A DNA stretch of 64,000 nucleotides, from assembly GCF_020991275.1 (NCBI RefSeq), contig NZ_JAJLQY010000013.1, forward strand, positions 1-64,000, written 5' to 3'. Shown here in pieces: positions 34,636 through 48,301 of the stretch. The notes beneath the pieces are model-generated. The model searched no databases. It had not been told where the DNA came from and was given only the letters and a program-made list of their open reading frames with translations. Numbering within the stretch: the first letter of the stretch is position 1; each line of letters begins with the position of its first letter. Position numbers and translations under genes: made by a program. The DNA comes from Actinocorallia sp. API 0066 (GTDB lineage Bacteria > Actinomycetota > Actinomycetes > Streptosporangiales > Streptosporangiaceae).

Positions 34636-34706
34636 GTCCGGCGCGGTCGGGCGGTGGTGGTGCCGGTGGCGGTCTGGCGCCCGCGGAAAATGTCAGAGGC
34701 GCATGA

Positions 34707-34719
34707 TTACATTCAATCA
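34707..34719. promoter_or_regulatory. Candidate operator copy 1 (TTACATTCAATCA)
   Basis: This matches 11 of 13 bases of the site TTACATGCAATCC found before the substrate-binding protein gene. It lies in an AT-richer, gene-free stretch upstream of the ABC transporter operon. Confidence 0.45.
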
Positions 34720-34870
34720 AGGCCGGAGAAGCGTCTAGAACGCGGTGTTTTGGTGGAGTTCGGGATGCTGGGCGGTTTGTGACGTTCGCGGCTTAGGTAG
34801 CAAAGATGCAGCTTGTCGGCATGGAGAGGGGTTGGAAACACGATGTTTACCGCGCGGGGCTTCCAAGGAT

Positions 34871-34883
34871 CTACATGTAATCC
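34871..34883. promoter_or_regulatory. Candidate operator copy 2 (CTACATGTAATCC)
   Basis: The motif contains the palindrome TACATGTA followed by ATCC and stands 54 bases before the ABC ATPase start. It closely matches the copies at 41986 and 42124. Confidence 0.55.
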
Positions 34884-34936
34884 CCCAGACTGGGACATAC
34901 CGAGTCCGGGAAGCACACCGGAAGGAGCTGGATGCG

Positions 34937-35719
34937 GTGAGGGCACTGATCGACACGATGCAGGGCGTGGACGCCGGGCATCTGCTGCACGGGCAGCAGA
35001 TCTCCGTGGACCGCGTGCGCATGCGCTACGCCACGGGCACCACCGCGCTGGAGGACGTCACGCTGAGCGTCGCGCGCGGCGAGTTCGTCGCGATCGTCGG
35101 GCCGTCCGGCTGCGGCAAGTCGACGCTGCTGCGGCTCGCGGCGGGCCTGGAGCGGCCCACCGCCGGGTCGGTGGCGCTCGGCACCTCGTCGGCGGCGTTC
35201 ATCTTCCAGGATCCGACGCTGCTTCCGTGGCGCTCGGTCCGCAAGAACGTCGCGCTGCTCACGCAGCTCGCCAAGCTGCCGAAGGACGAGCGGGAGCGGC
35301 GTGTGGACGCGGCGGTGGAGGCCGTCGGCCTGACGGCGTTCGCCAAGCAGCTCCCCAGGGCGCTGTCCGGAGGGATGCGGATGCGGGTCTCGCTCGCCCG
35401 CGCCCTCGCCCTGGAACCGGAGGTGATGCTCCTGGACGAGCCGTTCGGCGCGCTCGACGAGCTCACCAGGGACGAGATGCAGTCCCAGCTGCTGGAGCTG
35501 CACCGCCGCGCGGAGTTCACCGCGATGCTCGTCACCCACTCCGTGTCCGAGGCGGTCTACCTCGCGGACCGGGTGGTGGTGATGTCGGCGCGGCCCGGCC
35601 GGATCAGCGGCGTCGTCGAGGTCGGCCTGCCGCGCGACAGGGACGCGGCGATCCGGTTCGACCCGCGGTTCGTCGCGCGGGTGTCCGAGGTGTCCGCGCT
35701 CCTGCACGGGCGGGGGTGA
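34937..35719 (+). CDS. ABC transporter ATPase, nitrate/sulfonate/taurine (NitT/TauT) type
   Basis: This 260-aa ATPase has Walker A GPSGCGKST, Q loop FQDPTLLPWRSV, signature LSGGMRMRVSLARAL and Walker B VMLLDEPFGALDE. The DPTLLPWRSV and GGMRMRV versions are typical of the SsuB/TauB/ThiZ group. The GTG at 34937 is chosen because AAGGAG lies nine bases upstream. The permease gene follows six bases after the stop. The matching binding protein is probably the NMT1-like lipoprotein at 42172, which shares the same upstream motif. Confidence 0.93.
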   Translation: MRALIDTMQGVDAGHLLHGQQISVDRVRMRYATGTTALEDVTLSVARGEFVAIVGPSGCGKSTLLRLAAGLERPTAGSVALGTSSAAFIFQDPTLLPWRSVRKNVALLTQLAKLPKDERERRVDAAVEAVGLTAFAKQLPRALSGGMRMRVSLARALALEPEVMLLDEPFGALDELTRDEMQSQLLELHRRAEFTAMLVTHSVSEAVYLADRVVVMSARPGRISGVVEVGLPRDRDAAIRFDPRFVARVSEVSALLHGRG

Positions 35720-35725
35720 GCGGCC

Positions 35726-36574
35726 ATGGCGAGCACCACGCTCCCCGCCGTGAAGACGGCCCCCGAAGCCACGTCCGCGAAGCGGCCACGCGCCGCCTGG
35801 GCGCGCCGCGCCTTCGTGCCCTCCCTGTCGATCGTGCTGGGCCTGGCCGCCTGGTACTTCGTCAGCTACGCGCTCCTGACCCCGGACCGCCGGTTCCTGC
35901 TACCGCCCGCCCACGAGGTGCTGACCAGGGCGCTCCTCGACCCCGAACACGTCAGGCCGATGCTGGAGGCGCTCGCCGTGACGGCGCGGATCACCGCGCT
36001 CGGCCTCACCGTCGCCACCCTGATCGGCGTCCTCGCGGGCATCCTCATGAGCCGGTCCCGCGTGGTCGAGCAGGTGGTGTTCCCCTACGCGGTGATGCTC
36101 CAGGTCGTACCCGTGCTCGCCCTGGTGCCGCTCATCGGCATCTGGTTCGGCTACGGCTCGTTCTCCCGCACCGTCGTCTGCGTGATCATCGCGCTGTTCC
36201 CGATCATCACCAACACCCACTTCGGGATGCGCTCCATCGACCGGAGCCTGCACGAGCTGTTCACGCTCGGCCGGGCGTCGGGGCCGCGCAGGCTCCTCAG
36301 CCTGGAACTGCCCGCCGCGCTCCCGTCGATCCTGACCGGCCTGCGGATCGCGTCCGGGCAGGCCGTCGTCGGGGCGATCATCGGCGACATGTTCTTCGCC
36401 CAGGGCGAGCCGGGCATCGGCACGCTGCTGGCCGCCTACCAGGCGACGCTGCGCTCGCACGACCTCGTCGCCGCCATCTTCCTCGCCTCCCTCTTCGGCG
36501 TCGCCGTCTTCTCGCTGTTCGCGCTCACCTCGCGGCTCGCGGTCGGACGGTGGCACTCCTCCGGCGCCCGCTGA
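35726..36574 (+). CDS. ABC transporter permease (SsuC/TauC type)
   Basis: This 282-aa inner-membrane protein has about six helices and the BPD_transp_1 fold. The cytoplasmic EAA-like loop is around ELPAALPSILTGLRIASGQAVVG (here quoted in part, near residue 195). It pairs with the preceding ATPase. A glycine/arginine-rich cytosolic N-terminus of about 35 residues precedes the first helix. Substrate is not given by the sequence; neighbouring enzymes suggest a small N-containing ring compound. Confidence 0.93.
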   Translation: MASTTLPAVKTAPEATSAKRPRAAWARRAFVPSLSIVLGLAAWYFVSYALLTPDRRFLLPPAHEVLTRALLDPEHVRPMLEALAVTARITALGLTVATLIGVLAGILMSRSRVVEQVVFPYAVMLQVVPVLALVPLIGIWFGYGSFSRTVVCVIIALFPIITNTHFGMRSIDRSLHELFTLGRASGPRRLLSLELPAALPSILTGLRIASGQAVVGAIIGDMFFAQGEPGIGTLLAAYQATLRSHDLVAAIFLASLFGVAVFSLFALTSRLAVGRWHSSGAR

Positions 36575-36598
36575 CGCCACGACAACGAAAGCAGGAGC

Positions 36599-37594
36599 AT
36601 GACCACCGACTACTCACTCGCCGAGCTCAACAAGGAGGCCCGGATGGGCGGGCTCGGGGTCGAGACGACCGACCGGCAGATCCCGGTCATCGACCTCACC
36701 GACTTCGACGCCCGCAAGGCCGAGATCACCGACGCGCTGTGGCGGGCCGCCACCGAGATCGGCTTCTTCCAGATCACCGGCCACGGCATCGACCCGGCGC
36801 TCGTCGACCGCGCGTTCGCGGAGGCCGCGCGGTTCTTCGCGCTGCCCGAGCACGTCAAGGGGAAGGTCCCGCTGGTCAAGGAGCACAACGCGGGCTGGGA
36901 GTCGCTCACCCAGGTGCGGCCGTCGATCGGGACGCCGGACCGCAAGGAGTCCTACCAGATCACCCGTCCGCACATGGCTTCCCTCTGGCCGGACAAGACG
37001 GACCTTCCGGGCTTCCAGGAGTTCATGCTGGACTTCGAGGCGCGCTGCTGGGACGTCGCCATGCGGGTCCTGTCCTGCTTCGCCGACCGGCTCGGCTTCG
37101 ACACCGGTTTCTTCGCCCGCGCCCACGACCCCGCCGGCGCGGACTACCAGTCGACGCTCCGGCTCATCCACTACTTCGCGCTGCCCGACGACTACGAGCC
37201 CGACCCGGCGGTGTGGCGGGCCGGCGCGCACACCGACTTCGACTGCCTCACCCTGCTGTTCCAGCGCGACGGACAGGGCGGCCTCCAGGTCTGCCCCGGC
37301 CGGGACGCCGACGCGCAGGAGTGGACGCCGGTGCCGCCGTCGTCGGAGGCGATCACCTGCAACATCGGCGACATGCTCATGCGCTGGTCCGACGACCAGC
37401 TCATGTCGAACTTCCACCGGGTGCGGATGCCCGTCGCCGGGGAGTACACCGGGCCGCGCTTCAGCATCCCGTTCTTCGCGCAGGCCAACCGGGACGCCCT
37501 CATCGAGAGCCCCGGCGGCAAGTACGCGCCGATCACCGCGGCGGAGTACCTGAGGCAGCGCGTCACGGCCAACTACGATGAGCGCAAAGCCTGA
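36599..37594 (+). CDS. Isopenicillin N synthase-like Fe(II)/2-oxoglutarate dioxygenase 1
   Basis: This 331-aa enzyme has a DIOX_N segment (about residues 25-130; FFQITGHGIDPALVDRAF region) and a 2OG-FeII_Oxy jelly roll. The iron ligands His211, Asp213 (AHTDFD) and His273 (FHRV) and the 2-oxoglutarate-binding Arg287-x-Ser289 are all present, so it should be active. It would hydroxylate or oxidise the compound brought in by the ABC transporter. It follows the permease by 24 bases. A second, divergent dioxygenase of the same family is at 40888. Thymine-7-hydroxylase belongs to this family and is a possible model, but substrate is unproven. Confidence 0.9.
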   Translation: MTTDYSLAELNKEARMGGLGVETTDRQIPVIDLTDFDARKAEITDALWRAATEIGFFQITGHGIDPALVDRAFAEAARFFALPEHVKGKVPLVKEHNAGWESLTQVRPSIGTPDRKESYQITRPHMASLWPDKTDLPGFQEFMLDFEARCWDVAMRVLSCFADRLGFDTGFFARAHDPAGADYQSTLRLIHYFALPDDYEPDPAVWRAGAHTDFDCLTLLFQRDGQGGLQVCPGRDADAQEWTPVPPSSEAITCNIGDMLMRWSDDQLMSNFHRVRMPVAGEYTGPRFSIPFFAQANRDALIESPGGKYAPITAAEYLRQRVTANYDERKA

Positions 37595-37670
37595 GGGACG
37601 GCAGGGGCCGCCCGGCCCGCACGGACGCCGTGACGGCCCGGCCGGGCCGTCACGGCGCGGAGGAAGGACC

Positions 37671-38333
37671 ATGGGCAGTAGCGACAACGGCGAGCTGCTC
37701 GTCGACACCGTCTATCACCGGCTCACCGAGCGGATCTTCTCGGGCGAGCTGCCACCGGGCACGCCGCTGAGCGTCCCGGCGCTGGCGGCGGAGCTGGACG
37801 TCAGCCGCAGCCCCGTCCGCGAGTCGGTGCAGCGGCTCATCTACGACGGGATCGCCGTGCACACCCCGTACGCGGGCGCGAAGGTCGCGGTGATCGACGA
37901 GGAGTCGATCTTCGACGTGATGCAGGTGCGGGAGGTCCTCGACGGCCTCGCCGCCCGCGAGGCCACCCTCAAGATCGACGACGCGGGCCTCGCCGGGCTC
38001 GCCGCGATCATCGAGCGGCAGGCCGACCTCCTGTCCCGCGAGCCCGACCCGCACACCGAGGCCGCCCTCGACCTGGAGTTCCACACAGCGATCCGCGCCG
38101 CCTCCGGCAACGCCGCCCTCCGCGACGCCCTCCACCGCCTCGACGCCCGCGCCCACCTCTACCGCTCCGGCCTCTGGTCCGTGCAACGCAACCGCGAACA
38201 CGCCCTCGCCGAACACCGAGCCATCCTCACCGCCCTGGACGCCGGCGACCCCACCGCCGCCCAGACCACCGCCGCCGCCCACGTAGCCGCCCTCACCACC
38301 CGAATGAAACGCTGGCTGACAACCCACCCCTAA
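37671..38333 (+). CDS. GntR family (FCD) transcriptional regulator
   Basis: This 220-aa protein has an N-terminal winged helix (about residues 5-72, with LSVPALAAELDVSRSPVRESVQRL in part) and a C-terminal FCD effector domain. Possible metal ligands are Asp/His in DLEFHTAI, His in AEHRAIL and His in AAAHVAAL. FadR-type FCD regulators usually repress nearby catabolic genes until the substrate binds. The ATG follows GGAGGAAGG. It ends the plus-strand transporter/dioxygenase operon and is the best candidate to bind the TTRCATGYAATCC motif found upstream of both halves of the cluster. Confidence 0.9.
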   Translation: MGSSDNGELLVDTVYHRLTERIFSGELPPGTPLSVPALAAELDVSRSPVRESVQRLIYDGIAVHTPYAGAKVAVIDEESIFDVMQVREVLDGLAAREATLKIDDAGLAGLAAIIERQADLLSREPDPHTEAALDLEFHTAIRAASGNAALRDALHRLDARAHLYRSGLWSVQRNREHALAEHRAILTALDAGDPTAAQTTAAAHVAALTTRMKRWLTTHP

Positions 38334-38376
38334 CCCCCTCCGCCGACCGGTTGACCACCTCAAACCGACCACCCAC

Positions 38377-38508
38377 CTACTCCTCCGAATAACCCGCCCG
38401 ATTCCCCAACACCAACACCACGACGTTCACCACGACCGACCAGGAAATCACCACCACCCCGAACACCACCACCGGCAACGGCACCCCCCAACCCCGACCC
38501 GACACCAC
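38377..38508 (-). CDS. Possible small single-helix membrane peptide
   Basis: A 43-codon frame encodes a very hydrophobic stretch (VPLPVVVFGVVVISWSVVV) and ends NRAGYSEE, which looks like a small membrane peptide. It begins with two GTG codons directly after GGGGGGAGG, an unusually short spacing. The local DNA is G/T-rich, which alone can give many Val codons, so the call is weak. It follows the tandem paralog pair on the same strand. Confidence 0.25.
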   Translation of the reverse strand: MVSGRGWGVPLPVVVFGVVVISWSVVVNVVVLVLGNRAGYSEE

Positions 38509-38544
38509 CCTCCCCCCCGAAGCCTTCTCCGAACTGACGCGACA

Positions 38545-38925
38545 TCACCGTTCCTCGTCCGGCGGGATCTTTTCCAGGCGGTTGGTACCGTTCGGTTCGA
38601 TGATCCAGAGGTCGCCCGGGCAGGCCGGGCCGTCGATCTGCGCCAGCCTTTCTTCGCTCTCGGCATCGACGAGGAAGACCCGCACGCCTCTGCAGGAGGT
38701 GAGCAGGCGCTTTTCCGACTTGGCGTGGACCCTCAGGAGGCGGAAAGGACGTCGCCCGTCTCCCTCGTCCACCATCACCACGACCAGCCTGTCCATGCCG
38801 TTGCGCACCTGGAAGTACTCCTCCGGCGCGGGAACACTGTTGTAGGGCAGCACACAGCCGCCGACCAGCCAGGCCCCCGAAAGCGGCCCCCACACCTTTC
38901 GCCAGCTTTCCCACACGCCGCTCAC
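38545..38925 (-). CDS. Small protein, paralog B of a tandem pair, unknown family
   Basis: This 126-aa protein has a moderately hydrophobic N-terminus (GPLSGAWLVGGCVLPYN), possibly an anchor or signal. The main part is a beta-rich domain with FQVRNGMDRLVVVMVDEGDGR, a Cys in TSCRG, a second Cys in PACPGD and LWIIEPNGTNRLE. The same pattern occurs in the preceding gene, so the two are tandem duplicates that have diverged. The GTG start overlaps the paralog stop (GTGA). I recognise no known family. Confidence 0.6.
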   Translation of the reverse strand: MSGVWESWRKVWGPLSGAWLVGGCVLPYNSVPAPEEYFQVRNGMDRLVVVMVDEGDGRRPFRLLRVHAKSEKRLLTSCRGVRVFLVDAESEERLAQIDGPACPGDLWIIEPNGTNRLEKIPPDEER

Positions 38926-39344
38926 CGCCTTTCTCCGTTCGAGGTGGACCCGGCTCCCACGCGCGCCCCTCGGGTCTCTCCGGCCGGACGGTCCAGGTGG
39001 GTGGTGCCGTCGGGGTCGATGACCCAGACGGAGGCCGGGCAGAGAAGGCCGTACGCCTCGGCGACGAGGGCGCCGCCAGCGGTCCGCAGTGCGGAGCGGT
39101 GGCCGCGACAGCCGTCGGCGAGCATCGCGCTCCGCGGACCGGGACGGATCGGGCCGAGTTCCAGCCTCCCGTCCGTGTCCTCCACCACGAGGAGGACCGG
39201 CCTGTCCCACTCGTTGAGCACCGAGAAGGACACCCCCACGTCCTCCCCCTCATCAATCGGCACCAGAAAACACCCCGCACCGAACACCAGAACCCCCGCG
39301 AGCGCGGCACACCCGGCGAATGCCCTCACCCACCCCCTCCCCAC
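38922..39344 (-). CDS. Probable lipoprotein, paralog A of a tandem pair, unknown family
   Basis: This 140-aa protein starts with an arginine and a hydrophobic stretch ending in VFGAGC near residue 25, a marginal lipobox. The domain that follows contains FSVLNEWDRPVLLVVEDTDGR, a Cys in DGCRG, a Cys in LLCPAS and VWVIDPDGTTHLD. The equivalent segments in the next gene are clearly related, at roughly one third identity by eye. A small extracytoplasmic disulfide domain is likely. Function unknown. Confidence 0.65.
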   Translation of the reverse strand: MGRGWVRAFAGCAALAGVLVFGAGCFLVPIDEGEDVGVSFSVLNEWDRPVLLVVEDTDGRLELGPIRPGPRSAMLADGCRGHRSALRTAGGALVAEAYGLLCPASVWVIDPDGTTHLDRPAGETRGARVGAGSTSNGERR

Positions 39345-39354
39345 CGCACTCTCC

Positions 39355-39726
39355 TCACCCAGCCCCGAATCCGAACATTCCGGTCAGCGTCGCGCCCTCG
39401 TCACGCAGCTCCGGTTCGCCGACGACCTGTACCTGTGCGACCACGGCCGCGAGGGCGGGCTGGGCGGTCGGCTTGTCCGGGGCCGCGCCGGTGAACAGGG
39501 TGAAGGTGGTGGAGCGGTCTCTACGGTGCCATCCGGGCGGCGAATCGGCGTCGTAGTCGGCGGAACTGCCGGTCCTTCCGCAGGAGATCGTGCCGTCCGG
39601 CGGGTTGACCGATGGCTCGCCATCGCTCCGCGTCGGCGGGGCGGCGGGCTGTCGTGCGGGATGTCGGGTGGGGGTGGGGTTAGAGGTGGAGGGTTTGGTT
39701 GAAGGAGGTGGTGGTGGTGGTTTTTA
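39355..39726 (-). pseudogene. Start-less coding remnant
   Basis: An open minus-strand frame runs from after a TAA at about 39727 to a TGA at 39355. From 39640 onward its codons look truly coding (GC third positions), for example DGTISCGRTGSSADYDAD and TTFTLFTGAAPDKPTAQP, and it ends GMFGFGAG. The open frame has no ATG, GTG or TTG before the coding-like part. Its upstream end runs into the low-complexity 3' end of the FAD oxidoreductase gene. It may be the C-terminal end of a broken gene. Confidence 0.4.
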
Positions 39727-40885
39727 GGTCGGGTAGGGGGAGGGGGGTGGGTGGGGGGTGTGGGGGGAAGGTGAGGGTTTGGAGGGTTTTTTGGGGGGTG
39801 CGGTGGAGTTCCAGGTGGTGGAAGTGGGGGGCGCAGGGGCGGAGGGTGGTGGAGTGGAGTTGGGCCAGGAAGAGGGGCTCCTGGTGGGGGGAGTATTCGC
39901 CTTCCAGCCAGGGGAGGCGGGGGGTTGAGGGGTGGGGCCAGAGGGTGGGGTGGCTGTAGGGGAGGTGGGAGGGGGATTCGGGCCAGGGGGTGAGGAGGCC
40001 CGCGTGGGTGGCGGCTCGGGCGGCCAGTTCGGGGAGGGCGTTGGTGTCGGGGAGGAGGAGGGTGATGGGGGCGTCGGGACAGAGGTCGGGTGAGGTGAGG
40101 GGGAGGGAGGTTCTGGGGTGGCGGTGGAGGGAGAGGAGGCGGGTGGGGATGTCGCTGGTGGCTACGGACCAGGCGAAGCGGCAGCAGGAGTCGAAGGACG
40201 GGAAGACGGCGCACACCGGCGTGTAGGAGCGGGCCGGGACCAGGCGGAGTTCCACCCGGGTGAGGACGCCGGGGCGGCCGTGGGAGCCCAGGACGGGTAG
40301 GACGTCGGGGCCCTCCAGGCGGACGTGGCGCGGGGTCGGCTCGCGGGTGAGGAGTTCGACGGCGAGGACGTTGCCGTCGCGGAGGGCGCCGTGCGAGGCC
40401 GAGCCGAGCGCGACGGGGCCGCCGCCGCACACGAAGCCGGAAGCCGTCGCGACGTCGGCGGAGCCGGGCAGGAGGGCGAGCTCCTGCCCGGTCGCGCGGG
40501 CCGCCTCCTCCGCGACGCGCAGCACCGTGCCGGGCAGCAGCGAGATCCGGCCCGGCTCGACCGCCAGCACCCCCGCCACGCCCCTGACGTCCACGACGAG
40601 CCCCGCTCCCCCGACACCCGGCCGACCCGCACCGCCCGGCCGCAGGACGCCTCCCAGACGCCCGCCGAGGTACTCCCCCGGATCGCCGGGCCGGACCGGG
40701 ACGGGTGGGGCCGTGCCCGCGCCGTGGACGGTCAGGGGCATGCCGTGCCGGGCGGCGCGGGCGACGAGCGCGGTGAGTTCGGCGACCGTCCGTGGGCGTT
40801 CCCCGGACGGCGGCGCGAGGCCGTCGGGTGAGGGGAACGGGCGGTCGGGGGTGCGGAGGAGGCCGTCGAGGGTGGTGCGGGGCAT
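39680..40885 (-). CDS. FAD-binding (PCMH-type) oxidoreductase
   Basis: This protein of about 401 aa has an FAD_binding_4-like N-terminal half with RTVAELTALVARAARHGMPLTVHG (in part), a GSADVATASGFVCGGG loop and a following strand-rich region. It would oxidise a small molecule with bound FAD. The C-terminal 120 residues are rich in His, Pro and Leu and become low in complexity (TFPPHPPPTPLPLP), so the true C-terminus may be lost or the gene decayed here. The start ATG lies two bases after the stop of the second dioxygenase, so the two are one operon. Confidence 0.72.
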   Translation of the reverse strand: MPRTTLDGLLRTPDRPFPSPDGLAPPSGERPRTVAELTALVARAARHGMPLTVHGAGTAPPVPVRPGDPGEYLGGRLGGVLRPGGAGRPGVGGAGLVVDVRGVAGVLAVEPGRISLLPGTVLRVAEEAARATGQELALLPGSADVATASGFVCGGGPVALGSASHGALRDGNVLAVELLTREPTPRHVRLEGPDVLPVLGSHGRPGVLTRVELRLVPARSYTPVCAVFPSFDSCCRFAWSVATSDIPTRLLSLHRHPRTSLPLTSPDLCPDAPITLLLPDTNALPELAARAATHAGLLTPWPESPSHLPYSHPTLWPHPSTPRLPWLEGEYSPHQEPLFLAQLHSTTLRPCAPHFHHLELHRTPQKTLQTLTFPPHPPPTPLPLPDLKTTTTTSFNQTLHL

Positions 40886-40887
40886 GG

Positions 40888-41919
40888 TCAGCGGGCGGCC
40901 CGGACGCGGTCGGTCTCGCGGAGCGGGGTGGAGACGGCGCCGGTGCCCTTGAGGCCCGCGACCTTCATGGCGATGTTCTCCGCGATGGTGATGGGCGGGT
41001 AGCCGGGGGACGCGGTGTCGGCGCAGCCGGGCAGCGTCTCGATGACGGCGTCGTGGTCGCCGTCGAAGAAGAACGCGGCGGAGCGGCGCCGGACGATCGA
41101 GCCTCCGACGACGGGCGGGTCGACCCGGTGCACGGTGGACAGCCAGCGGTCGTTCGTCCACCGGGCCATCGCGTCGCCGAGGTTCACCAGGAAGGCGCCT
41201 TCGGCGGGCTGGACGTCGTGCCAGACGCCGTCGGTGTCGAGGACCTGGAGGCCGGGCACCCGGTCGGCCCACAGGACGGTGAGGATGCCGAAGTCGGTGT
41301 GGGCGCCCATACCGAGGACTTCTCCGGCGACGGCCTCTCCTTCGGGGAGCGCGTAGTTGTTCATCTTGAGCGCGTCGATGGAGCGGCCCGTCATGCCGTC
41401 GAAGTAGCCCTGCGGTAGGCCGAGCGCGTCGGTGAAGACGCGGAGGAGGGTCCGTGAGAGCGTCCGTACCTCCGCGAAGTACCTTTCGACGGCCGGGCGG
41501 AACGTGCTCGCGGCGTCCGGCCACGTGTTGTCCGCGTAGCTCGCCTCCGGCAGGTCCGGGTCGGCGTACCAGGAGCGCTCGCTCCCGACGGTGAAGGACT
41601 CGTAGAAGTCGTTCATGGCGGTGGTGATGCCGAGGCTGCGGCTCAGGGACTCGGACTTGGGCGGGGAGTAGCCGCGGTTCTCCCCCGGCCTGCGGTACGC
41701 CTTCTTGGCTTCCAGCGGCAGGCCGAAGAACGTGTCGAGCGCGGCGCCGAGGCCGTCGATGACGGCGTCGGGCACCCCGTGCCCGGTGATCTGCACAAAG
41801 CCGACCTCGCGGCAGGCGCTGTCGAGTTCGGCGGCGACGCGCGCGCACTCGGCCGAGGCGCCCGCGTGCGCGCCGGGCGCGCGGTAGGGGCTGATGTCCA
41901 GGACGGGAACGGTGAACAT
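40888..41919 (-). CDS. Isopenicillin N synthase-like Fe(II)/2-oxoglutarate dioxygenase 2
   Basis: This 343-aa enzyme has the same fold and family as the dioxygenase at 36599. Iron ligands are His207 and Asp209 (AHTDFG) and His264 (VHRVD); the 2-oxoglutarate Arg is in RRRSAAFFF. N-terminal family motif GFVQITGHGVPDAVIDGL is present in part. It is first in a minus-strand pair with the FAD oxidoreductase and divergent from the substrate-binding lipoprotein. Upstream lies a motif shared with the ABC operon. The two dioxygenases probably catalyse successive or alternative oxidations. The ATG follows GGGAAGAG. Confidence 0.9.
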   Translation of the reverse strand: MFTVPVLDISPYRAPGAHAGASAECARVAAELDSACREVGFVQITGHGVPDAVIDGLGAALDTFFGLPLEAKKAYRRPGENRGYSPPKSESLSRSLGITTAMNDFYESFTVGSERSWYADPDLPEASYADNTWPDAASTFRPAVERYFAEVRTLSRTLLRVFTDALGLPQGYFDGMTGRSIDALKMNNYALPEGEAVAGEVLGMGAHTDFGILTVLWADRVPGLQVLDTDGVWHDVQPAEGAFLVNLGDAMARWTNDRWLSTVHRVDPPVVGGSIVRRRSAAFFFDGDHDAVIETLPGCADTASPGYPPITIAENIAMKVAGLKGTGAVSTPLRETDRVRAAR

Positions 41920-41985
41920 GGGCTCTTCCCTCTCTCGTGACGGGGCCGGCGGTACGAGAGGCGCCCGGTCCGGCAACTTCAGGGG

Positions 41986-42136
41986 TTGCATGTAATCCCT
42001 GGTTCCGGGAACCAGCCTGCGACCTCGGTATGTCATCCAGGTAACACCAGGTTAAGCCCATGTGTGCAATCCAGGGATCCTGCTCGGATCCAGCGATTTA
42101 ACGGCACCGACACAAACCCATGTTTACATGCAATCC
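41986..42136. promoter_or_regulatory. Divergent control region with three operator copies
   Basis: Between the dioxygenase (minus) and the binding protein (plus) lie TTGCATGTAATCC (41986-41998), ATGTGTGCAATCC (42060-42072) and TTACATGCAATCC (42124-42136), all versions of TTRCATGYAATCC with a TTRCATGYAA palindromic core. A perfect palindrome CTGGTTCC-G-GGAACCAG (41999-42015) directly follows the first. Two GGATCC sites nearby form another small repeat. Confidence 0.6.
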
Positions 42137-42171
42137 ACCCACCAACATTCCCCAGAGAGCGAGCGTTGCAC

Positions 42172-43332
42172 ATGAGACGGTTCACCACGATGCTGGCCGC
42201 GGGCGCGGTCGGCGCCCTCGCCCTCACCGCCTGCGGCGCCGACGAGACGGCGGACGGGGCCCCCTCCGCCGCGCTGGAGGCGGCCCCGCAGGAGCAGCGC
42301 CTGGACGGCGCCTGCCCGGCCGAGGTCGTCGTCCAGCTCCAGTGGCAGCCGCAGTCCGACATGGGCGCGATGTTCCAACTGCTCGGCCCCGGCGCGAAGG
42401 TCGACTCGGACGCCAAGGCGATCACCGGCCCGCTCGTGGCGGGCGGCAAGGACACCGGCGTGAAGCTGACGCTGCGGGCGGGCGGCCCGGCCATCGGCTT
42501 CCAGTCCGTGCCGTCCCAGATGTACGTGGACGAGAAGATCTCGTTCGGCCTCGTGCACGGCGACCAGCTCGTCGCGGCCGCCGGAGAGCAGCGCGTCGTA
42601 GGGGTGACGCCGCTCCTGTCGCACACCCCGGCGATCCTGCTGTGGGACCCCAAGACGTACCCGCAGTGGAAGACGATCGCGGACATCGGCAAGACCGACG
42701 CGTCCGTCGTCGTCTCGAAGGGCCAGTACTACCCTCAGTGGCTCGTCGCGCAGGGGCTGGTGAAGAAGTCGCAGATCGACGAGAGCTACGACGGCTCGCC
42801 CGCGCGCTTCGCCAGCCGTCCGGACATCGCCCTCCAGGGCTTCGCCAACTCCGAGCCCTACACGTTCGAGAAGCAGACGCCGGCCTGGAACAAGCCTGTG
42901 GCGTACCAGCTTCTCAAGGACGCGGGTTATGACATCTACGCGTCCAACCTCTCGGTCCGCGCGGACAAGCTGGAGAAGCTGGCGCCCTGCCTGGAGAAGC
43001 TCGTCCCGCTCGTGCAGCAGGCGGGCGTGGACTACCTCACCTCCCCCGACGCGACGAACAAGGTGATCATCGACATGGTCGCCGAGGTCGTCTCCTTCTT
43101 CCCCTACAGCGAGGGCGAGGCGACCTACAGCGCCCAGCTCCTGAAGGACAAGGGGCTGATCGGGAACGAGGCGGACGGCTCCCTGGGCACCTATGACACC
43201 AAGCGCGTCACGGAGCAGGTGGAGATGCTTGCGCCCGTCCTGAAGGCGGCGGGTATCGACGTACCCTCTGACCTCAGGCCGGAGGACTTCTTCACCGACC
43301 GGTTCACCGACCACAAGATCGGCATCAAGTGA
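42172..43332 (+). CDS. ABC transporter substrate-binding lipoprotein (NMT1/THI5-like)
   Basis: This 386-aa protein starts with a lipoprotein signal (lipobox LTAC, Cys near residue 22). The mature part is a two-lobe periplasmic-binding fold with LQWQPQSDMGAMFQLLG and YVDEKISFGLVHGDQLVAA. NMT1/THI5-type binding proteins carry pyrimidines, taurine, nitrate or aromatic sulfonates, and pair with NitT/TauT transporters such as the ATPase and permease at 34937-36574. It is tightly coupled to the amidohydrolase that follows, with GTGA overlap. The start ATG has only a weak purine-rich site (GAGAGCGAGCG). Confidence 0.9.
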   Translation: MRRFTTMLAAGAVGALALTACGADETADGAPSAALEAAPQEQRLDGACPAEVVVQLQWQPQSDMGAMFQLLGPGAKVDSDAKAITGPLVAGGKDTGVKLTLRAGGPAIGFQSVPSQMYVDEKISFGLVHGDQLVAAAGEQRVVGVTPLLSHTPAILLWDPKTYPQWKTIADIGKTDASVVVSKGQYYPQWLVAQGLVKKSQIDESYDGSPARFASRPDIALQGFANSEPYTFEKQTPAWNKPVAYQLLKDAGYDIYASNLSVRADKLEKLAPCLEKLVPLVQQAGVDYLTSPDATNKVIIDMVAEVVSFFPYSEGEATYSAQLLKDKGLIGNEADGSLGTYDTKRVTEQVEMLAPVLKAAGIDVPSDLRPEDFFTDRFTDHKIGIK

Positions 43333-44651
43333 CCGCGCAGCACCACAGCCCCGGCGCCGTCGTGGACGCCACCGTCTACCGCGACGGCGCCTGGGCGCCC
43401 CACCAGGACGTCCTGTTCGAGGACGGGGTGGTCACCGCCGTCCGCGACCACGTGCCCGGCACGGCGGGGATCGACGGCGCGGGCGCCCACGTGATCCCGG
43501 GCTTCGTCAACACCCACACGCACCTCCAGCAGGCGCTGATGCGGGGCGTCGGGGAGGGGCTGCCGCTGCTTTCGTGGCTGCTGTCGGTGGCCGAGGAGAC
43601 GGTCGCGCTCACTCCCGAACGGGCCTACCTGGCCGCCGCCGCAGGGGCGCTGGAGGCGCTCAGGAGCGGCACCACGACGCTCGTGGAGCACATGTGGCCC
43701 TCGCCGTCGCCGGAGCTGCACGACGCCGTCCTGCGGGCGCTGGAGGACGTCGGGATCCGCGCGGTGTTCGGCCGCGGCGTCACCGACCGGGTGGACGCTA
43801 CTCGCAAGTGGGGTTCGGACCCCCGCCTGGTCCAGCCGCTCGGCGAGGCGCTCGCGCACACCGACGAGCTGGCCGCGCGCGCCGCCAAGGGCGACGGCCG
43901 GATCACCATGGCGCTCGCGGTGCCCAACCCGCGCTGCCTGACGCCCGAGGGCATGGCCGTGGTCCGTGAGTTCGCCGAGGCCCGTGGCATGACCGTCTCC
44001 ATCCATCTGCTGGAGACGACGACGGACGACGACATGTGCCGCGCGCACACGGGCCTGGGCGCGGTGGAGTTCCTGGAGGCGTCCGGCTTCCTGTGGGACA
44101 GGCTGCTGGCCGTCCACTGCGTCGAGCTGTCGGCCGCCGGGATGCGGACGTTGGCGGCGCATGGGGTGGCGGTCTCCTACAACCCGGTGAGCAACATGCG
44201 TCTGGGCAGCGGTGTGGCTCCCGTCCCGGAGATGCTGGAGGCGGGTCTACGCGTCGGGCTCGGGGTGGACGGCGCCGCCAGCAACGACACCCAGGACATG
44301 CTGGAGGCCCTGCGGCTCGGCTCCTACGTGCAGCGCGCCCTGCACCGGCGCGCGGATCTGCTGCCCGCGCCCGCGATGCTCGACCTGGCCTGCGCGGGCG
44401 CGAACCGCGTGCTCGGCCTCCCCTCCCCGACGAGCGGTGTCACGCCCGGCTCCCCGGCCGACCTCACGCTCCTCCGGTTCGACCGTGACTACGCGGTCCT
44501 GCCCGTCCGCGACCCTTCGGCGACGCTGCTGACGACGGGCACCCCGCGCCTCGTCGACACGGTGCTCGTGAACGGCGACCCCGTCATCCGCGACGGCAGG
44601 AGCACCCGCCTGGACGAGGCGGACCTGACGGCCCGTCTCCTGGCGCTCTGA
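43329..44651 (+). CDS. TRZ/ATZ-type amidohydrolase
   Basis: This 440-aa metal-dependent deaminase/hydrolase is of the cytosine-deaminase / S-adenosylhomocysteine-deaminase / chlorohydrolase group. Metal ligands are His63 and His65 in VNTHTHLQQ, a His in SIHLLET, a His in AVHCVEL and an Asp in GLGVDGAASND. Such enzymes remove amino or chloro groups from N-heterocycles (guanine, cytosine, triazines). The GTG start overlaps the binding-protein stop. It may act on the imported compound before or after the dioxygenases. The C-terminus returns to the composite beta-domain typical of the family. Confidence 0.9.
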   Translation: MTAQHHSPGAVVDATVYRDGAWAPHQDVLFEDGVVTAVRDHVPGTAGIDGAGAHVIPGFVNTHTHLQQALMRGVGEGLPLLSWLLSVAEETVALTPERAYLAAAAGALEALRSGTTTLVEHMWPSPSPELHDAVLRALEDVGIRAVFGRGVTDRVDATRKWGSDPRLVQPLGEALAHTDELAARAAKGDGRITMALAVPNPRCLTPEGMAVVREFAEARGMTVSIHLLETTTDDDMCRAHTGLGAVEFLEASGFLWDRLLAVHCVELSAAGMRTLAAHGVAVSYNPVSNMRLGSGVAPVPEMLEAGLRVGLGVDGAASNDTQDMLEALRLGSYVQRALHRRADLLPAPAMLDLACAGANRVLGLPSPTSGVTPGSPADLTLLRFDRDYAVLPVRDPSATLLTTGTPRLVDTVLVNGDPVIRDGRSTRLDEADLTARLLAL

Positions 44652-44699: not shown

Positions 44700-45218
44700 T
44701 CAGGAGGAGGGGGTCTCCGCCGGTGCGCGGGAGGGCCGCCAGCAGGCGGCCAGAAGCAGTAGGCCGCCCACACCGCCGCCAGCGGCGACGAGCAGACCCC
44801 ACGGGCCGTCCAGGGCGAGGCCGACGAGGTGGTCCACGGACCAACGGCCGGGCCCCAGCGCGGCCAGGGCGCAGGCCGCCAGGATGATCATGAGGACGTA
44901 CTCGTAGCCCTCGCCCGGACGGAAGATGAAGAACCCGTTCCTCAGGTGGTTGGCCACCAGGGCGACGACCATCGTGCCGACCACGGCGGCGGTGGCGAGC
45001 GCGTTCAGGAGTCCCGCCAGGAGGAGGACGCCCGCGCCCAGTTCGGTGACCGTCGCGAGCAGCGCGTGGACCCGGCCCGGACGGATGCCGATGGACTCGA
45101 ACCAGCGGGCCGTCCCCGAAAGGCGGCCGCCGCCGAAGGCGTGGTTCCAGCCGTGCGCGACCATCGTGACGCCCAGGGTGAGCCGCAGCAGGGCGGCGGC
45201 CAGATCAGTCTCGATCAT
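44700..45218 (-). CDS. DoxX family membrane protein
   Basis: This 172-aa protein has four hydrophobic helices and the DoxX segments GVTMVAHGWNHAFGG and TELGAGVLLLAGLL. DoxX-like proteins are small membrane oxidoreductase-associated proteins, in some cases parts of thiosulfate:quinone oxidoreductase or redox-stress complexes. It is the last gene of the long minus-strand catabolic operon, seven bases after the ferredoxin reductase, so it may help pass electrons to or from that system, but direct evidence is lacking. Confidence 0.82.
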   Translation of the reverse strand: MIETDLAAALLRLTLGVTMVAHGWNHAFGGGRLSGTARWFESIGIRPGRVHALLATVTELGAGVLLLAGLLNALATAAVVGTMVVALVANHLRNGFFIFRPGEGYEYVLMIILAACALAALGPGRWSVDHLVGLALDGPWGLLVAAGGGVGGLLLLAACWRPSRAPAETPSS

Positions 45219-45225
45219 CGTGCCC

Positions 45226-46422
45226 TCACCGTCCGGCCTGGGCGAGGACGGCGGACCGTGACGCCCCGGCGGCGACGAGCGCCCGATAGCGGACGAACAA
45301 AGCGGGCGCACCGAAGGAGGCGACCCCGCTGAGCGCGTCCCCGGTGAAGTAGCCAAGAACCGTCCCCTTCACGGGGCCTCCTTCCAGCCCTGCGCCGTGC
45401 AGGGTGAGCACCTCGTCGGCGGCGCCGGTGCGGCCGACGGTCTGGATCTTCATGCCGAACTGGTCGGACCAGACGTACGGGGGCGCCGCCTTGGGGAGCG
45501 GCGCGCCGAGCACATCGCACGCCACGGCCGCCGCCTGGTCAAGGGTCGTGGTCCAGTGTTCGCCCCGGTGGTGGGCGAGGGCGGCCGGGTCCCACCAGGC
45601 GGCGGCGTCGCCGACCGCCCAGACGGACTCCGCGCCCAGCGCGCGGCCGCGCTCGTCACACGCGAGGCCGCCTTGCGCGCGGCTGCCCGTGCCGTCGAGC
45701 CAGGCGAGGTCGGGCGCCGCGCCGACGCTCACCAGGACGGCGTCCGCGCCGAGCGTCGTGCCGTCGGCGAGGGTGACGGTGCGGGCGTCGGCGAAGCCGG
45801 TGAGCGCGGTTCCGCAGCGCAGGGCGACGCCCGCCTCGGTGAACAGCCGCGCCGCCAGCATGCCCGCGCGGGGCCCCAGTGCCCGCTCACACGGCACGGC
45901 GGCCGTTTCCAGGACCATCACCGCGACTCCGGCCTCGGCGGCCGCACAGGCGACCTCGGCGCCGATGAAGCCGCCGCCGACGATGAGCAGCGACCGCGCC
46001 GGGCCGAGCGCGTCGCGCAGCGCGAGCGCGTCGCCCAGGGTGCGCAGGGTGTGCGCGCCGTCCGGCTGGCCGGGCAGGGTGCGCGGCACAACGCCGGTCG
46101 CGACGACGACGGCGTCGCCCGCGACCTCCGAACCGTCCGCGAGGCCGACCGTGGTGCCGCGCAGCGACGTCGCCCGGACCCCGAACCGCGTCTTCACGCC
46201 GAGTTCGGCGAGCGCCACGTCGTCGCGCAGCACGACCCGCTCAGGCTCCCACTGCCCCTTGAGGATCTGTTTGGACAGCGGCGGCCTGTCGTAAGGCGGA
46301 TGCGCCTCACCCCCGACGAGGGTGATCGCCCCGCCGTACCCCTCGGCCCGCAGCCGCTCGACGGTCTTCACCCCGCCGAGCCCGGCCCCGACCACCACAA
46401 CATGCGAAGGCACGCCTTTCAC
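45226..46422 (-). CDS. Ferredoxin reductase-like FAD/NAD(P) oxidoreductase
   Basis: This 398-aa flavoprotein has two dinucleotide-binding motifs, VVVGAGLGGVKT near residue 9 and LIVGGGFIGAEVA near residue 146, and the FAD motif in SVWAVGDAAAW. It matches the rubredoxin/ferredoxin/putidaredoxin reductase family with a C-terminal reductase domain. In this operon it most likely carries electrons from NAD(P)H to the ferredoxins at 49972 and 51754, and thence to the P450 at 50340. Confidence 0.92.
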   Translation of the reverse strand: MKGVPSHVVVVGAGLGGVKTVERLRAEGYGGAITLVGGEAHPPYDRPPLSKQILKGQWEPERVVLRDDVALAELGVKTRFGVRATSLRGTTVGLADGSEVAGDAVVVATGVVPRTLPGQPDGAHTLRTLGDALALRDALGPARSLLIVGGGFIGAEVACAAAEAGVAVMVLETAAVPCERALGPRAGMLAARLFTEAGVALRCGTALTGFADARTVTLADGTTLGADAVLVSVGAAPDLAWLDGTGSRAQGGLACDERGRALGAESVWAVGDAAAWWDPAALAHHRGEHWTTTLDQAAAVACDVLGAPLPKAAPPYVWSDQFGMKIQTVGRTGAADEVLTLHGAGLEGGPVKGTVLGYFTGDALSGVASFGAPALFVRYRALVAAGASRSAVLAQAGR

Positions 46423-46437
46423 CTCTCCCCCCGCCGG

Positions 46438-46740
46438 TCAGTCGGAGGCGGGGAGGGGCTTGGCGGTCTTCTGGGCGACCTCGGCGCCGTTGACGGCGAC
46501 CGGGTGGGTGCCGGGCTGGACGCAGAGGAGTTCGATGTCCACGCCGTCGGCGGTGTAGCGCTTGCCCAGGAGGGCGCCTGCGCCGGGGTCGGCGAGGGCC
46601 GGGGCCTGGGCGGGGGCCTGCTCGTCGGTCATGGCGCGGCCGCCGCAGGTGACGGTGAGGTCGTCGGCGGGGCAGCGGACGACGACGAGTGCGGTGCCGT
46701 CCACGGTGCTGCGGAGGGTCTGCCCTACGCGGAGTTTCAT
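46438..46740 (-). CDS. Small hypothetical protein
   Basis: This 100-aa soluble protein has a beta-rich start (VGQTLRSTVDGTALVVVRCP) with Cys in VVRCPAD, VTCGGR and ELLCVQP. No family recognised. The three Cys residues and a conserved-looking TCGGRAM segment might bind a metal. It is in the catabolic operon between the ferredoxin reductase (15 bases) and an aldehyde dehydrogenase, so a role in electron transfer or substrate handling is possible. Confidence 0.65.
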   Translation of the reverse strand: MKLRVGQTLRSTVDGTALVVVRCPADDLTVTCGGRAMTDEQAPAQAPALADPGAGALLGKRYTADGVDIELLCVQPGTHPVAVNGAEVAQKTAKPLPASD

Positions 46741-46774
46741 GCGGGTGCTCCTTGCTGTTGCGGAAGTCGGGGGT

Positions 46775-48223
46775 TCAGCGGGCGACGAGGCCGACGAGTT
46801 TCACGTCCAGGTACTCCTCGATGCCCTGCGCGCCGCCCTCGCGGCCCAGGCCGCTGGCGCCGACGCCGCCGAAGGGCGCGGCCGCGCCGGTCGGGTCGAT
46901 GTCGTTGACGCCGACGATGCCGAAGCGCAGCGCCTCGCTGACGCGGACCGCCCTGCCGAGATCGTTGGTGTAGACGTAGGAGGCGAGGCCGTATTCGGTG
47001 TCGTTGGCGCGCCGGACGGCCTCCTCCTCGGTGTCGAAGGGGATGACGGCGGCGACGGGCCCGAACGTCTCCTCGTGGTAGACGCGCATGGTCTCGTCCA
47101 CCCCGGTGAGGACGGTCGGCGCGTAGAAGCGGCCGGAAGACAGCCCGTCGGAGGTGAGCCGGTGCCCTCCGGCCAGCAGGCGGGCCCCGCGCGCGACCGC
47201 GTCCTCGACCTGCGCGGCGACCTTGGCCAGCGCCGCGTCGTCGACGAGCGGCCCGATCGCGACGCCGGGACGGTCGCCGGGCCCGGCCTCCAGCCGGGAG
47301 ACGCGGGCGACGAGTTCGGCGGTGAACGCGTCGAGGACCGACCGGTGGACGAAGATCCGGTTCGGGCTGATGCACGCCTGCCCGGTGTTGAGGAACTTGA
47401 CGAGGGCGGCGCCCTTGGCGGCGTGCGCCGGGTCAGCGTCGGGGAACACGAGCAGGGGCGCGTGCCCGCCCAGCTCCATCGAGACCCGCTTCATGGTGGC
47501 GGCCGCGCGCGCTGCGAGCCGCTTGCCCACGGCGGTCGAGCCGGTGAACGTCAGCTTCCGGACCGTGGGCGCGTCCAGCAGCCGGTCGCCGACGGCCTCG
47601 GGCCGCGCGGCGGTGACGAGGTTGGCGACGCCCGCCGGGAGCCCCGCCTCGGCGAGCAGGTCGAACACGGCGACGGCGCACAGCGGGGTCTGCTCGGCGG
47701 GCTTGAGGACGACGGTGCAGCCGGCGGCGACGGCGGGTGCCACCTTCCGGGTGATCATCGAGACCGGGTAGTTCCACGGGGTGATCGCCGCGACGACGCC
47801 GACCGGCTGGCGTAGCACGGTGAGCCGCTGGTCGGCGCGGGCTGACGGGATCGTGCCTCCGTAGACGCGCTTGGCCTCCTCGGCGAACCAGCTCAGGAAG
47901 CTCGCGGCGTAGCGCACCTCGTTGCGGGCCGCCTTCAGTGGCTTGCCCTGCTCGCGCGTCATCAGCGCGGCGAGGGATTCGGACCGCTCCAGCATCAGGT
48001 CGTGCGCCTTCCACAGCACCTCCGCGCGCCGGTAGGCGGTCTCCCTGCTCCAGGAGGGGAACGCCGCGGTGGCGGCGGCGAGCGCCCGGTCGGTCTCGGC
48101 GGCGCCGGCGTCGGCGGCCGTGCCGACGATGTCGCCGGTGGCCGGGTCGGTGACGTCGAAGGTCGCGCCGTCGTCGGCACCCTGCCACTTGCCGTCGATG
48201 AACAGGGTGTCCCCGTCCCGCAC
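46775..48223 (-). CDS. NAD(P)-dependent aldehyde dehydrogenase 1
   Basis: This 482-aa enzyme has the Rossmann motif FTGSTAVGKRLAA, the catalytic Glu in MELGGHAP and Cys in NTGQACISPNR, all as in succinate-semialdehyde-type dehydrogenases. It oxidises an aldehyde to an acid. The GTG at 48223 is preferred since GGAGGAG lies just upstream; an ATG at 48256 is also in frame. It is in the P450 operon, 78 bases after the DUF35-thiolase fusion gene. A second aldehyde dehydrogenase lies at 52875. Confidence 0.95.
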   Translation of the reverse strand: MRDGDTLFIDGKWQGADDGATFDVTDPATGDIVGTAADAGAAETDRALAAATAAFPSWSRETAYRRAEVLWKAHDLMLERSESLAALMTREQGKPLKAARNEVRYAASFLSWFAEEAKRVYGGTIPSARADQRLTVLRQPVGVVAAITPWNYPVSMITRKVAPAVAAGCTVVLKPAEQTPLCAVAVFDLLAEAGLPAGVANLVTAARPEAVGDRLLDAPTVRKLTFTGSTAVGKRLAARAAATMKRVSMELGGHAPLLVFPDADPAHAAKGAALVKFLNTGQACISPNRIFVHRSVLDAFTAELVARVSRLEAGPGDRPGVAIGPLVDDAALAKVAAQVEDAVARGARLLAGGHRLTSDGLSSGRFYAPTVLTGVDETMRVYHEETFGPVAAVIPFDTEEEAVRRANDTEYGLASYVYTNDLGRAVRVSEALRFGIVGVNDIDPTGAAAPFGGVGASGLGREGGAQGIEEYLDVKLVGLVAR

Positions 48224-48301
48224 GTCTCCTCCGATCGACGTTTCTACATGTCTCATATCGTCAATGATTCCCGATCCGCGACCGCCGGACGGAGCCGGGG
48301 G

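Follow-up and report, generated by a model that had tools for sequence, protein, structure and literature searches.

Oxidation of purines in bacteria is ascribed to molybdenum hydroxylases, with the Rieske-type HpxDE system as an exception. The classical catabolic set consists of guanine deaminase, the xanthine dehydrogenase (XDH) XdhABC, uricase, HIUase, UraD and allantoinase, and to our knowledge it contains neither Fe(II)/2-oxoglutarate (2OG)-dependent dioxygenases nor an importer of the NitT/TauT type. A precedent for purine oxidation by an Fe(II)/2OG enzyme is given by XanA of Aspergillus, a 2OG-dependent xanthine hydroxylase belonging to the TauD family. Here, we describe an eight-gene locus within a stretch of 64,000 nucleotides (the window) of Actinocorallia sp. 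API 0066, an organism with a genome of 7.0 Mb. The locus encodes the ATPase and permease of an ABC importer, a binding lipoprotein (SBP), two Fe(II)/2OG dioxygenases (DIOX1 and DIOX2), an amidohydrolase (AMH), a GntR-FCD regulator and an FAD oxidoreductase. We consider it probable, with some reserve, that this is a dedicated and self-regulated purine-catabolic locus by which an amino-oxopurine is imported, deaminated and oxidized by the dioxygenases toward xanthine or urate.

Each component resembles a described system and differs from it. DIOX1 shares with thymine-7-hydroxylase (T7H) of Neurospora crassa (PDB 5c3o-5c3s, PMC4787775) the fold, the His-Asp-His triad, the 2OG-binding residues R287, S289 and Y192 and the ring-binding residues N97, R188 and F293. 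It differs by an identity of only 30-33%, by the exchanges E122 to Q120 and N294 to Q295, by its bacterial host and by the purine gene context in its relatives. In contrast to XanA, DIOX1 belongs to the family of isopenicillin N synthase and T7H. AMH has the metal ligands and the overall family in common with 8-oxoguanine deaminase and AtzA-type amidohydrolases (PDB 7ww2, 4v1x), but its score does not reach half the NCBIfam cut-off for 8-oxoguanine deaminase and is only 34% identical to an enzyme encoded by Streptomyces himalayensis that exceeds this cut-off. The SBP model has the fold of ThiY/NMT1-THI5 and of ThiXYZ transporters (top matches 3ix1 and 4nmy), yet the identity is at most 16% in the matches shown, the Pfam NMT1 family is not matched and the gene partners are others. 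From classical purine catabolism it is the downstream steps that are linked to DIOX1 loci in relatives. The new element in an otherwise known purine catabolism is most likely the thymine-hydroxylase-like dioxygenases. The gene set was not found described in the titles and abstract openings among the literature matches listed, a partial coverage that does not establish its absence from print.

A conserved core of importer, deaminase and dioxygenase

The locus is arranged in three blocks, i.e., ATPase, permease, DIOX1 and GntR on the forward strand (34937-38333), DIOX2 and then the FAD gene on the reverse strand (41919 down to 39680) and SBP followed by AMH on the forward strand (42172-44651). 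The sequence-only reading of this DNA had listed exactly these eight proteins, and all of them are present as open reading frames (ORFs) and, except for the lipoprotein, as Pfam matches. The importer consists of a NitT/TauT-type ATPase (34937..35719, forward strand; Pfam ABC_tran) and a permease (35726..36574, forward strand; Pfam BPD_transp_1). The GTG start of the ATPase at 34937 behind an AAGGAG-like site is our own reading; the analyses ran from a start at 34955.

A genome of the same genus (L040) contains the identical eight genes in identical order, with 81-88% identity save for the FAD gene with 42%. DIOX1 is a rare protein, which at a threshold of E 1e-60 is present in 3 of 396 sampled genomes of its own phylum, the home genome included, and in 14 of 398 sampled Pseudomonadota genomes. 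For the analysis of gene neighborhoods 80 named DIOX1 loci were used, which are the best 80 of at least 521 confirmed relatives and of which 17 end at a contig edge within 8 kb. Within 8 kb of DIOX1 a transporter is encoded in 67 of the 80 loci (65 without general ABC ATPases of less than 45% identity) and a deaminase in 63, while both are present in 60 loci either way, showing that the cluster genes do travel together elsewhere; the absence of co-occurrence that the sequence-only reading had named as its refutation was thus not observed. SBP, ABC importer, AMH and GntR occur all together in 24 loci, seven of which also have a DIOX2 ortholog; among all 80 loci there are eight with a DIOX2 ortholog and 15 with a more distant DIOX2-like enzyme. 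Since the order of the eight genes is kept in L040 and the core of importer, deaminase and DIOX1 recurs in Actinomycetota and Pseudomonadota, a chance assembly is excluded.

Moreover, the partners of DIOX1 are exchangeable. In Pseudomonadota they are swapped for an NMT1 binding protein and a deaminase of the CDA fold, DIOX1 being kept, and another partner found in this phylum is a PRK12393 amidohydrolase (over the cut-off for loci L122, L171 and L165). In S. himalayensis (L071) a PbuX-type carrier of the xanthine-permease family accompanies DIOX1 (450.4 bits versus a cut-off of 414.15 bits). As each partner can give way to an unrelated protein of like role, there is strong evidence for a functional core made up of importer, deaminase and dioxygenase, and the logic of import, deamination and oxidation put forward in the sequence-only reading fits the gene set.

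Some loci show further features. In L065, a contig labeled Acidobacteriaceae bacterium BOG_194, a segment ABC-DIOX2-DIOX1-GntR is 59-74% identical to the actinobacterial genes, either by horizontal transfer or by a binning error. In two Streptomyces loci, L078 (near 8500-9900) and L088 (near 9277), the AMH ortholog is visible only as short ORF pieces, possibly reflecting a frameshift or a pseudogene. Loci of the Acidovorax type (L089, L092-L094, L096, L098-L100, L118, L119, L123 and L138) carry a second set of genes left of DIOX1, composed of an NMT1-type SBP, a creatininase-family protein, a CodA-like deaminase, an FMN reductase and a RutR-like regulator, with an FAD_binding_4-type relative of the FAD oxidoreductase described here in 11 of the 12; this set probably belongs to a related nucleobase or creatinine-type pathway. 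Furthermore, a gene for an AlkZ-like DNA glycosylase (PF06224) is located within 8 kb of DIOX1 in 18 of the 80 loci (e.g., L068 and L074). AlkZ enzymes free N7-alkylguanine. As all 18 loci are from Nocardia, this link may be plain synteny and we do not use it as support for a methylguanine substrate.

Genomic linkage to urate and xanthine metabolism in relatives

The sequence-only reading had drawn on pyrimidine-, triazine- and taurine-handling relatives for the substrate, but the gene neighbors of the relatives and the phyletic pattern favor purines on the way to urate. In Rhodococcus triatomae (L087, 8791-17418) the genes for SBP, DIOX1 and AMH are succeeded by those for a UraD-urate oxidase fusion, HIUase, a protein without assignment, allantoicase and PuuE, an allantoinase. 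All five urate-pathway functions named here exceed their NCBIfam cut-offs, and the fusion gene, the first in this row, begins 4 bases before the AMH stop codon. The unit is also present in Rhodococcus sp. RD6.2 (L091), there with UraD and urate oxidase unfused; the unassigned gene of both units is HpcH/malate-synthase-like in our reading, and in both loci the genes for DIOX2, the GntR regulator and the transporter are divergently oriented from the same gap that bears the palindrome. Approximately 9 kb away from DIOX1, S. himalayensis encodes two enzymes that exceed their cut-offs, a urate oxidase and an 8-oxoguanine deaminase. In the proteobacterial genome G861 an operon SBP-ATPase-permease-CDA-DIOX1 is divergent from xdhABC (XdhA by Pfam domains; XdhB 1145.7 versus 849.5 bits; XdhC 237.7 versus 161.6 bits). 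The Burkholderiales loci L107, L111 and L129 have PuuE, and the latter two also HIUase. This is accompanied by a co-distribution at the level of whole genomes: in the Pseudomonadota sample HIUase is present in all 14 genomes with DIOX1 compared to 147 of 398 overall (hypergeometric p 5.8e-7, uncorrected for relatedness and genome size). The urate and xanthine genes adjoining some DIOX1 loci of relatives and the co-distribution of HIUase make purines toward urate the best-supported substrate class; a pyrimidine or triazine as substrate is probably wrong, and taurine as substrate finds no support either.

Within a purine pathway the dioxygenases might act in two ways. They may hydroxylate the ring independently of molybdenum, converting guanine to 8-oxoguanine or xanthine to urate, with AMH as deaminase and urate as product. 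This is suggested by the two Rhodococcus loci, where urate oxidase is part of the same operon and no XDH is seen in it, and by AMH, which among NCBIfam models is most similar to 8-oxoguanine deaminase, though below cut-off, and which matches PDB 7ww2. However, a molybdenum hydroxylase match is found in 31 of 31 genomes encoding DIOX1, with XdhB over cut-off in 21, and R. triatomae possesses an XDH-like set on another contig according to our reading of its ORFs. Because of these matches the idea that the dioxygenases stand in for XDH at the level of the genome was rejected, and we regard ring hydroxylation as unlikely, albeit deserving of attention.

Alternatively, the substrate might be a methylguanine such as 7-methylguanine derived from RNA or DNA turnover. 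The dioxygenases would hydroxylate N-methyl groups, AMH would deaminate the base and xanthine would be passed on to XDH. T7H oxidizes the methyl group of an oxopyrimidine ring (PMC4787775). A hemiaminal that decays unaided would explain the core set without any further enzyme and two dioxygenases could serve two positions. The finding of XDH in genomes with DIOX1, and next to the operon of G861, favors demethylation. The Rhodococcus operon, whose genes run directly into urate oxidase and in which no XDH was seen, favors ring hydroxylation and speaks against demethylation. We regard N-demethylation as less likely than not, though somewhat likelier than ring hydroxylation.

Active sites of the dioxygenases and comparison with T7H

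DIOX1 (36599..37594, forward strand) and DIOX2 (40888..41919, reverse strand) both contain the Pfam domains DIOX_N and 2OG-FeII_Oxy. As proposed from the sequence, the iron ligands of both are intact, i.e., H211, D213 and H273 of DIOX1, which are invariant in 24 chosen sequences, and H207, D209 and H264 of DIOX2, invariant in 4 sequences. The aligned sequences (24 for DIOX1, 20 for AMH and 32 for SBP) are selections from larger sets. The structural model of DIOX1 has a pLDDT of 88 and its eleven best PDB matches are all T7H, so that the early lead to this enzyme was right. T7H grips the uracil ring by N87, F292 and Y217, plus E122, R190 and N294 through waters (PMC4787775). In the corresponding pocket of DIOX1 residues N97, R188 and F293 are present in 24 of 24 sequences and F214 in at least 90%, whereas Q120 replaces E122 and Q295 replaces N294 of T7H, so that the full set of thymine contacts is not conserved. 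Among the 2OG-binding residues R287 is invariant in the 24 sequences and S289 is found in at least 90%. This pattern of residues suggests that the pocket of DIOX1 may recognize a uracil-like ring face, as xanthine and partly guanine have, with altered contacts.

The similarity of DIOX1 to T7H in sequence and fold and the retained Asn, Arg and Phe residues of the pocket would also be compatible with a pyrimidine pathway, in which 5-methylcytosine is deaminated to thymine and thymine is oxidized by DIOX1 as in fungi. CodA-like genes of the cytosine deaminase family are located near DIOX1 in 14 of the 80 loci and a RutR-like regulator is found in the Acidovorax-type loci. On the other hand, iso-orotate decarboxylase is not among the annotated genes, though no search was aimed at it, the carrier in the Streptomyces locus is a member of the xanthine-permease family and the urate genes are part of the same Rhodococcus unit. 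D-hydantoinase is encoded within 50 kb of DIOX1 in 0 of 31 genomes, although 24 of the 31 encode one; this enzyme alone was the comparator for the proximity of purine genes. Pyrimidine degradation as the genomic context was rejected on this basis and we judge the pyrimidine pathway to be improbable.

Amidohydrolase and binding protein

AMH (43329..44651, forward strand; Pfam Amidohydro_1), whose start overlaps the stop codon of SBP, is a predicted deaminase of the COG0402 type. The motif of COG0402/TRZ-ATZ deaminases comprises metal ligands in the form of HxH, His, His and Asp plus HxxE. The assignment to the TRZ/ATZ type made from the sequence holds, as H63, H65, H226, E229, H263 and D314 are kept in 20 of 20 chosen orthologs. 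The best NCBIfam model is PRK08203 (8-oxoguanine deaminase), with 234.3 bits remaining below the cut-off of 532 bits. The best single PDB match of AMH is atrazine chlorohydrolase, which together with the creatininase-family genes near DIOX1 in 12 of the 80 loci would be in line with the uptake of another amino-heterocycle, such as a triazine, a pterin or a creatinine-like compound, loosely tied to purines. However, the match to AtzA is at the level of the superfamily and the creatininase genes belong to the second gene set found mainly in Acidovorax, so that such a substrate appears quite improbable to us.

SBP (42172..43332, forward strand) was assigned to the ThiY/Thi5 fold by a structure model with a pLDDT of 92. 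Its closest Foldseek matches are ThiY, thiamin-binding protein and Thi5, the top match being 3ix1 with E 1.9e-13. The description as an NMT1-type lipoprotein thus holds for the fold and not for the sequence, with PF09084 and all other Pfam families unmatched at E 1e-3. A paralogous cluster SBP-permease-ATPase-amidohydrolase with 39, 45, 56 and 32% identity, respectively, is present elsewhere in the genome of Actinocorallia sp. API 0066 (L048, C44:310201-330200).

Several observations weigh against the assignment of the locus to purine catabolism. In its fold SBP is most similar to proteins that bind pyrimidines and thiamin, the closest characterized dioxygenase acts on a pyrimidine, and CodA-like genes lie near DIOX1 in the loci described above. 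AMH is below the cut-off in all 25 NCBIfam families shown of the 35 matched. A minority of the genomes, 7 of 31, encode HIUase or XdhB at a distance of up to 50 kb from DIOX1, and the genome of Actinocorallia sp. API 0066 has its urate oxidase, HIUase and XDH-like gene (the latter below cut-off) on another contig. HIUase is present in 29 of the 31 genomes, G031 and G113 being without it, and uricase of PF01014 in only 8 of 31, of which the rest may use other urate oxidases. Finally, no partner gene was seen near DIOX1 in 9 of the 80 loci, one of which (L139) is due to a missed ORF call.

A shared palindrome and the GntR-FCD regulator

The regulator (37671..38333, forward strand) contains both a GntR helix-turn-helix and an FCD domain as detected by Pfam. 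A 14-base palindrome resembling GATTRCATGYAATC is located ahead of every transcription unit of the locus. Two sites precede the transporter operon, GATTACATTCAATC at 34705..34718 with one mismatch to GATTRCATGYAATC and TCTACATGTAATC at 34870..34882 with two mismatches; GGTTGCATGTAATC at 41984..41997 is placed between the divergent genes for DIOX2 and SBP and GTTTACATGCAATC at 42122..42135 ahead of SBP, each with one mismatch. Allowing no more than one mismatch to its 13-base core, the palindrome occurs three times in the entire genome, each time read on both strands, and all three sites are at the locus. Two-mismatch sites are no more common in the genome than for a reversed control (18 versus 17 matches in all) and the site at 34870 therefore rests on its position. 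The layout with four sites recurs in L040, where two sites have one mismatch and two have two.

The palindrome recurs ahead of the same genes in relatives: 98 stretches with a total of 1.93 Mb contain 26 sites that deviate at no more than one position, compared to 0 for the reversed pattern. This count includes one palindrome twice, since L041 and L067 represent a single locus, as do L042 and L117. Moreover, the occurrence of the palindrome follows that of the regulator: of the 28 loci that encode an ortholog of GntR, 27 carry a palindrome deviating at no more than two positions and 19 one deviating at no more than one, compared to 4 and 1, respectively, of the other 52 loci. This single locus is L074 (9926-10990) of Nocardia sp. 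alder85J, which has DIOX1 alone with the other cluster genes not nearby and a palindrome free of mismatches that is located 45 bases ahead of the predicted start. Judged from these sequence patterns, the palindrome is the presumed operator to which the GntR-FCD protein binds, and the eight-gene region is probably one self-regulated unit.

The FAD oxidoreductase and downstream genes

The FAD_binding_4 oxidoreductase (39680..40885, reverse strand) had been considered as a member of the pathway, but it does not belong to the conserved set. No ortholog of its gene was found within 8 kb of DIOX1 in the 80 loci. The protein is shortened and poorly conserved, covers only positions 43-131 of 139 of the FAD_binding_4 model, with the first part of the domain match absent, and is shorter at both ends than its 42% identical counterpart in L040; the third-position G+C content of the gene is slightly below that of its neighbors. 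As a core enzyme it was rejected because of the low identity in L040, the truncated appearance and its absence near DIOX1, and the gene is probably accessory or decaying. Other FAD_binding_4 proteins with 26-34% identity are encoded at least 8 kb from DIOX1 in 12 of the 80 loci, one is located approximately 4 kb from DIOX1 in L061 and another within 8 kb in L072, so an oxidase of this type may have a role in related loci.

Downstream of AMH, on the opposite strand at 44703-48256, genes for a DoxX protein, a ferredoxin-reductase-like flavoprotein and an aldehyde-dehydrogenase-like protein are found. Even if two mismatches are allowed, these genes have no palindrome ahead of them, and they are not seen in the L040 version of the cluster.

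Proposed pathway and its significance

From the computed gene content, co-occurrence, shared palindrome, likeness in fold and active site and the urate-xanthine link of relatives, we infer the substrate, the order of steps, the site of oxidation and the role of the palindrome as GntR operator. The ThiY-like lipoprotein and the ABC importer would take up an amino-oxopurine base, i.e., guanine or a derivative, most likely N-methylated or otherwise modified, and AMH would deaminate the imported base. DIOX1 and DIOX2 would oxidize it, either by hydroxylation of a ring carbon (e.g., C8) or by hydroxylation of an N-methyl group with release of the methyl as formaldehyde. The resulting xanthine or urate would feed the urate pathway encoded elsewhere in the own genome, and the GntR-FCD protein would govern all units through the GATTRCATGYAATC palindrome.

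A molybdenum-free route from purines to urate is possible. That at least two bacterial phyla have a second, molybdenum-independent route from (amino)purines to urate, composed of importer, deaminase and ring-hydroxylating Fe(II)/2OG dioxygenases of the T7H lineage and in some Rhodococcus forming a single regulated unit together with urate oxidase, is a far-reaching version that we consider doubtful. Databases name the dioxygenase family only "isopenicillin N synthase-like", and a purine function, if true, would give this family a role. An Fe(II)/2OG-based purine set in two phyla with its own importer and operator would then amount to a metal-independent path leading to urate or else to the salvage of methylated RNA and DNA bases.

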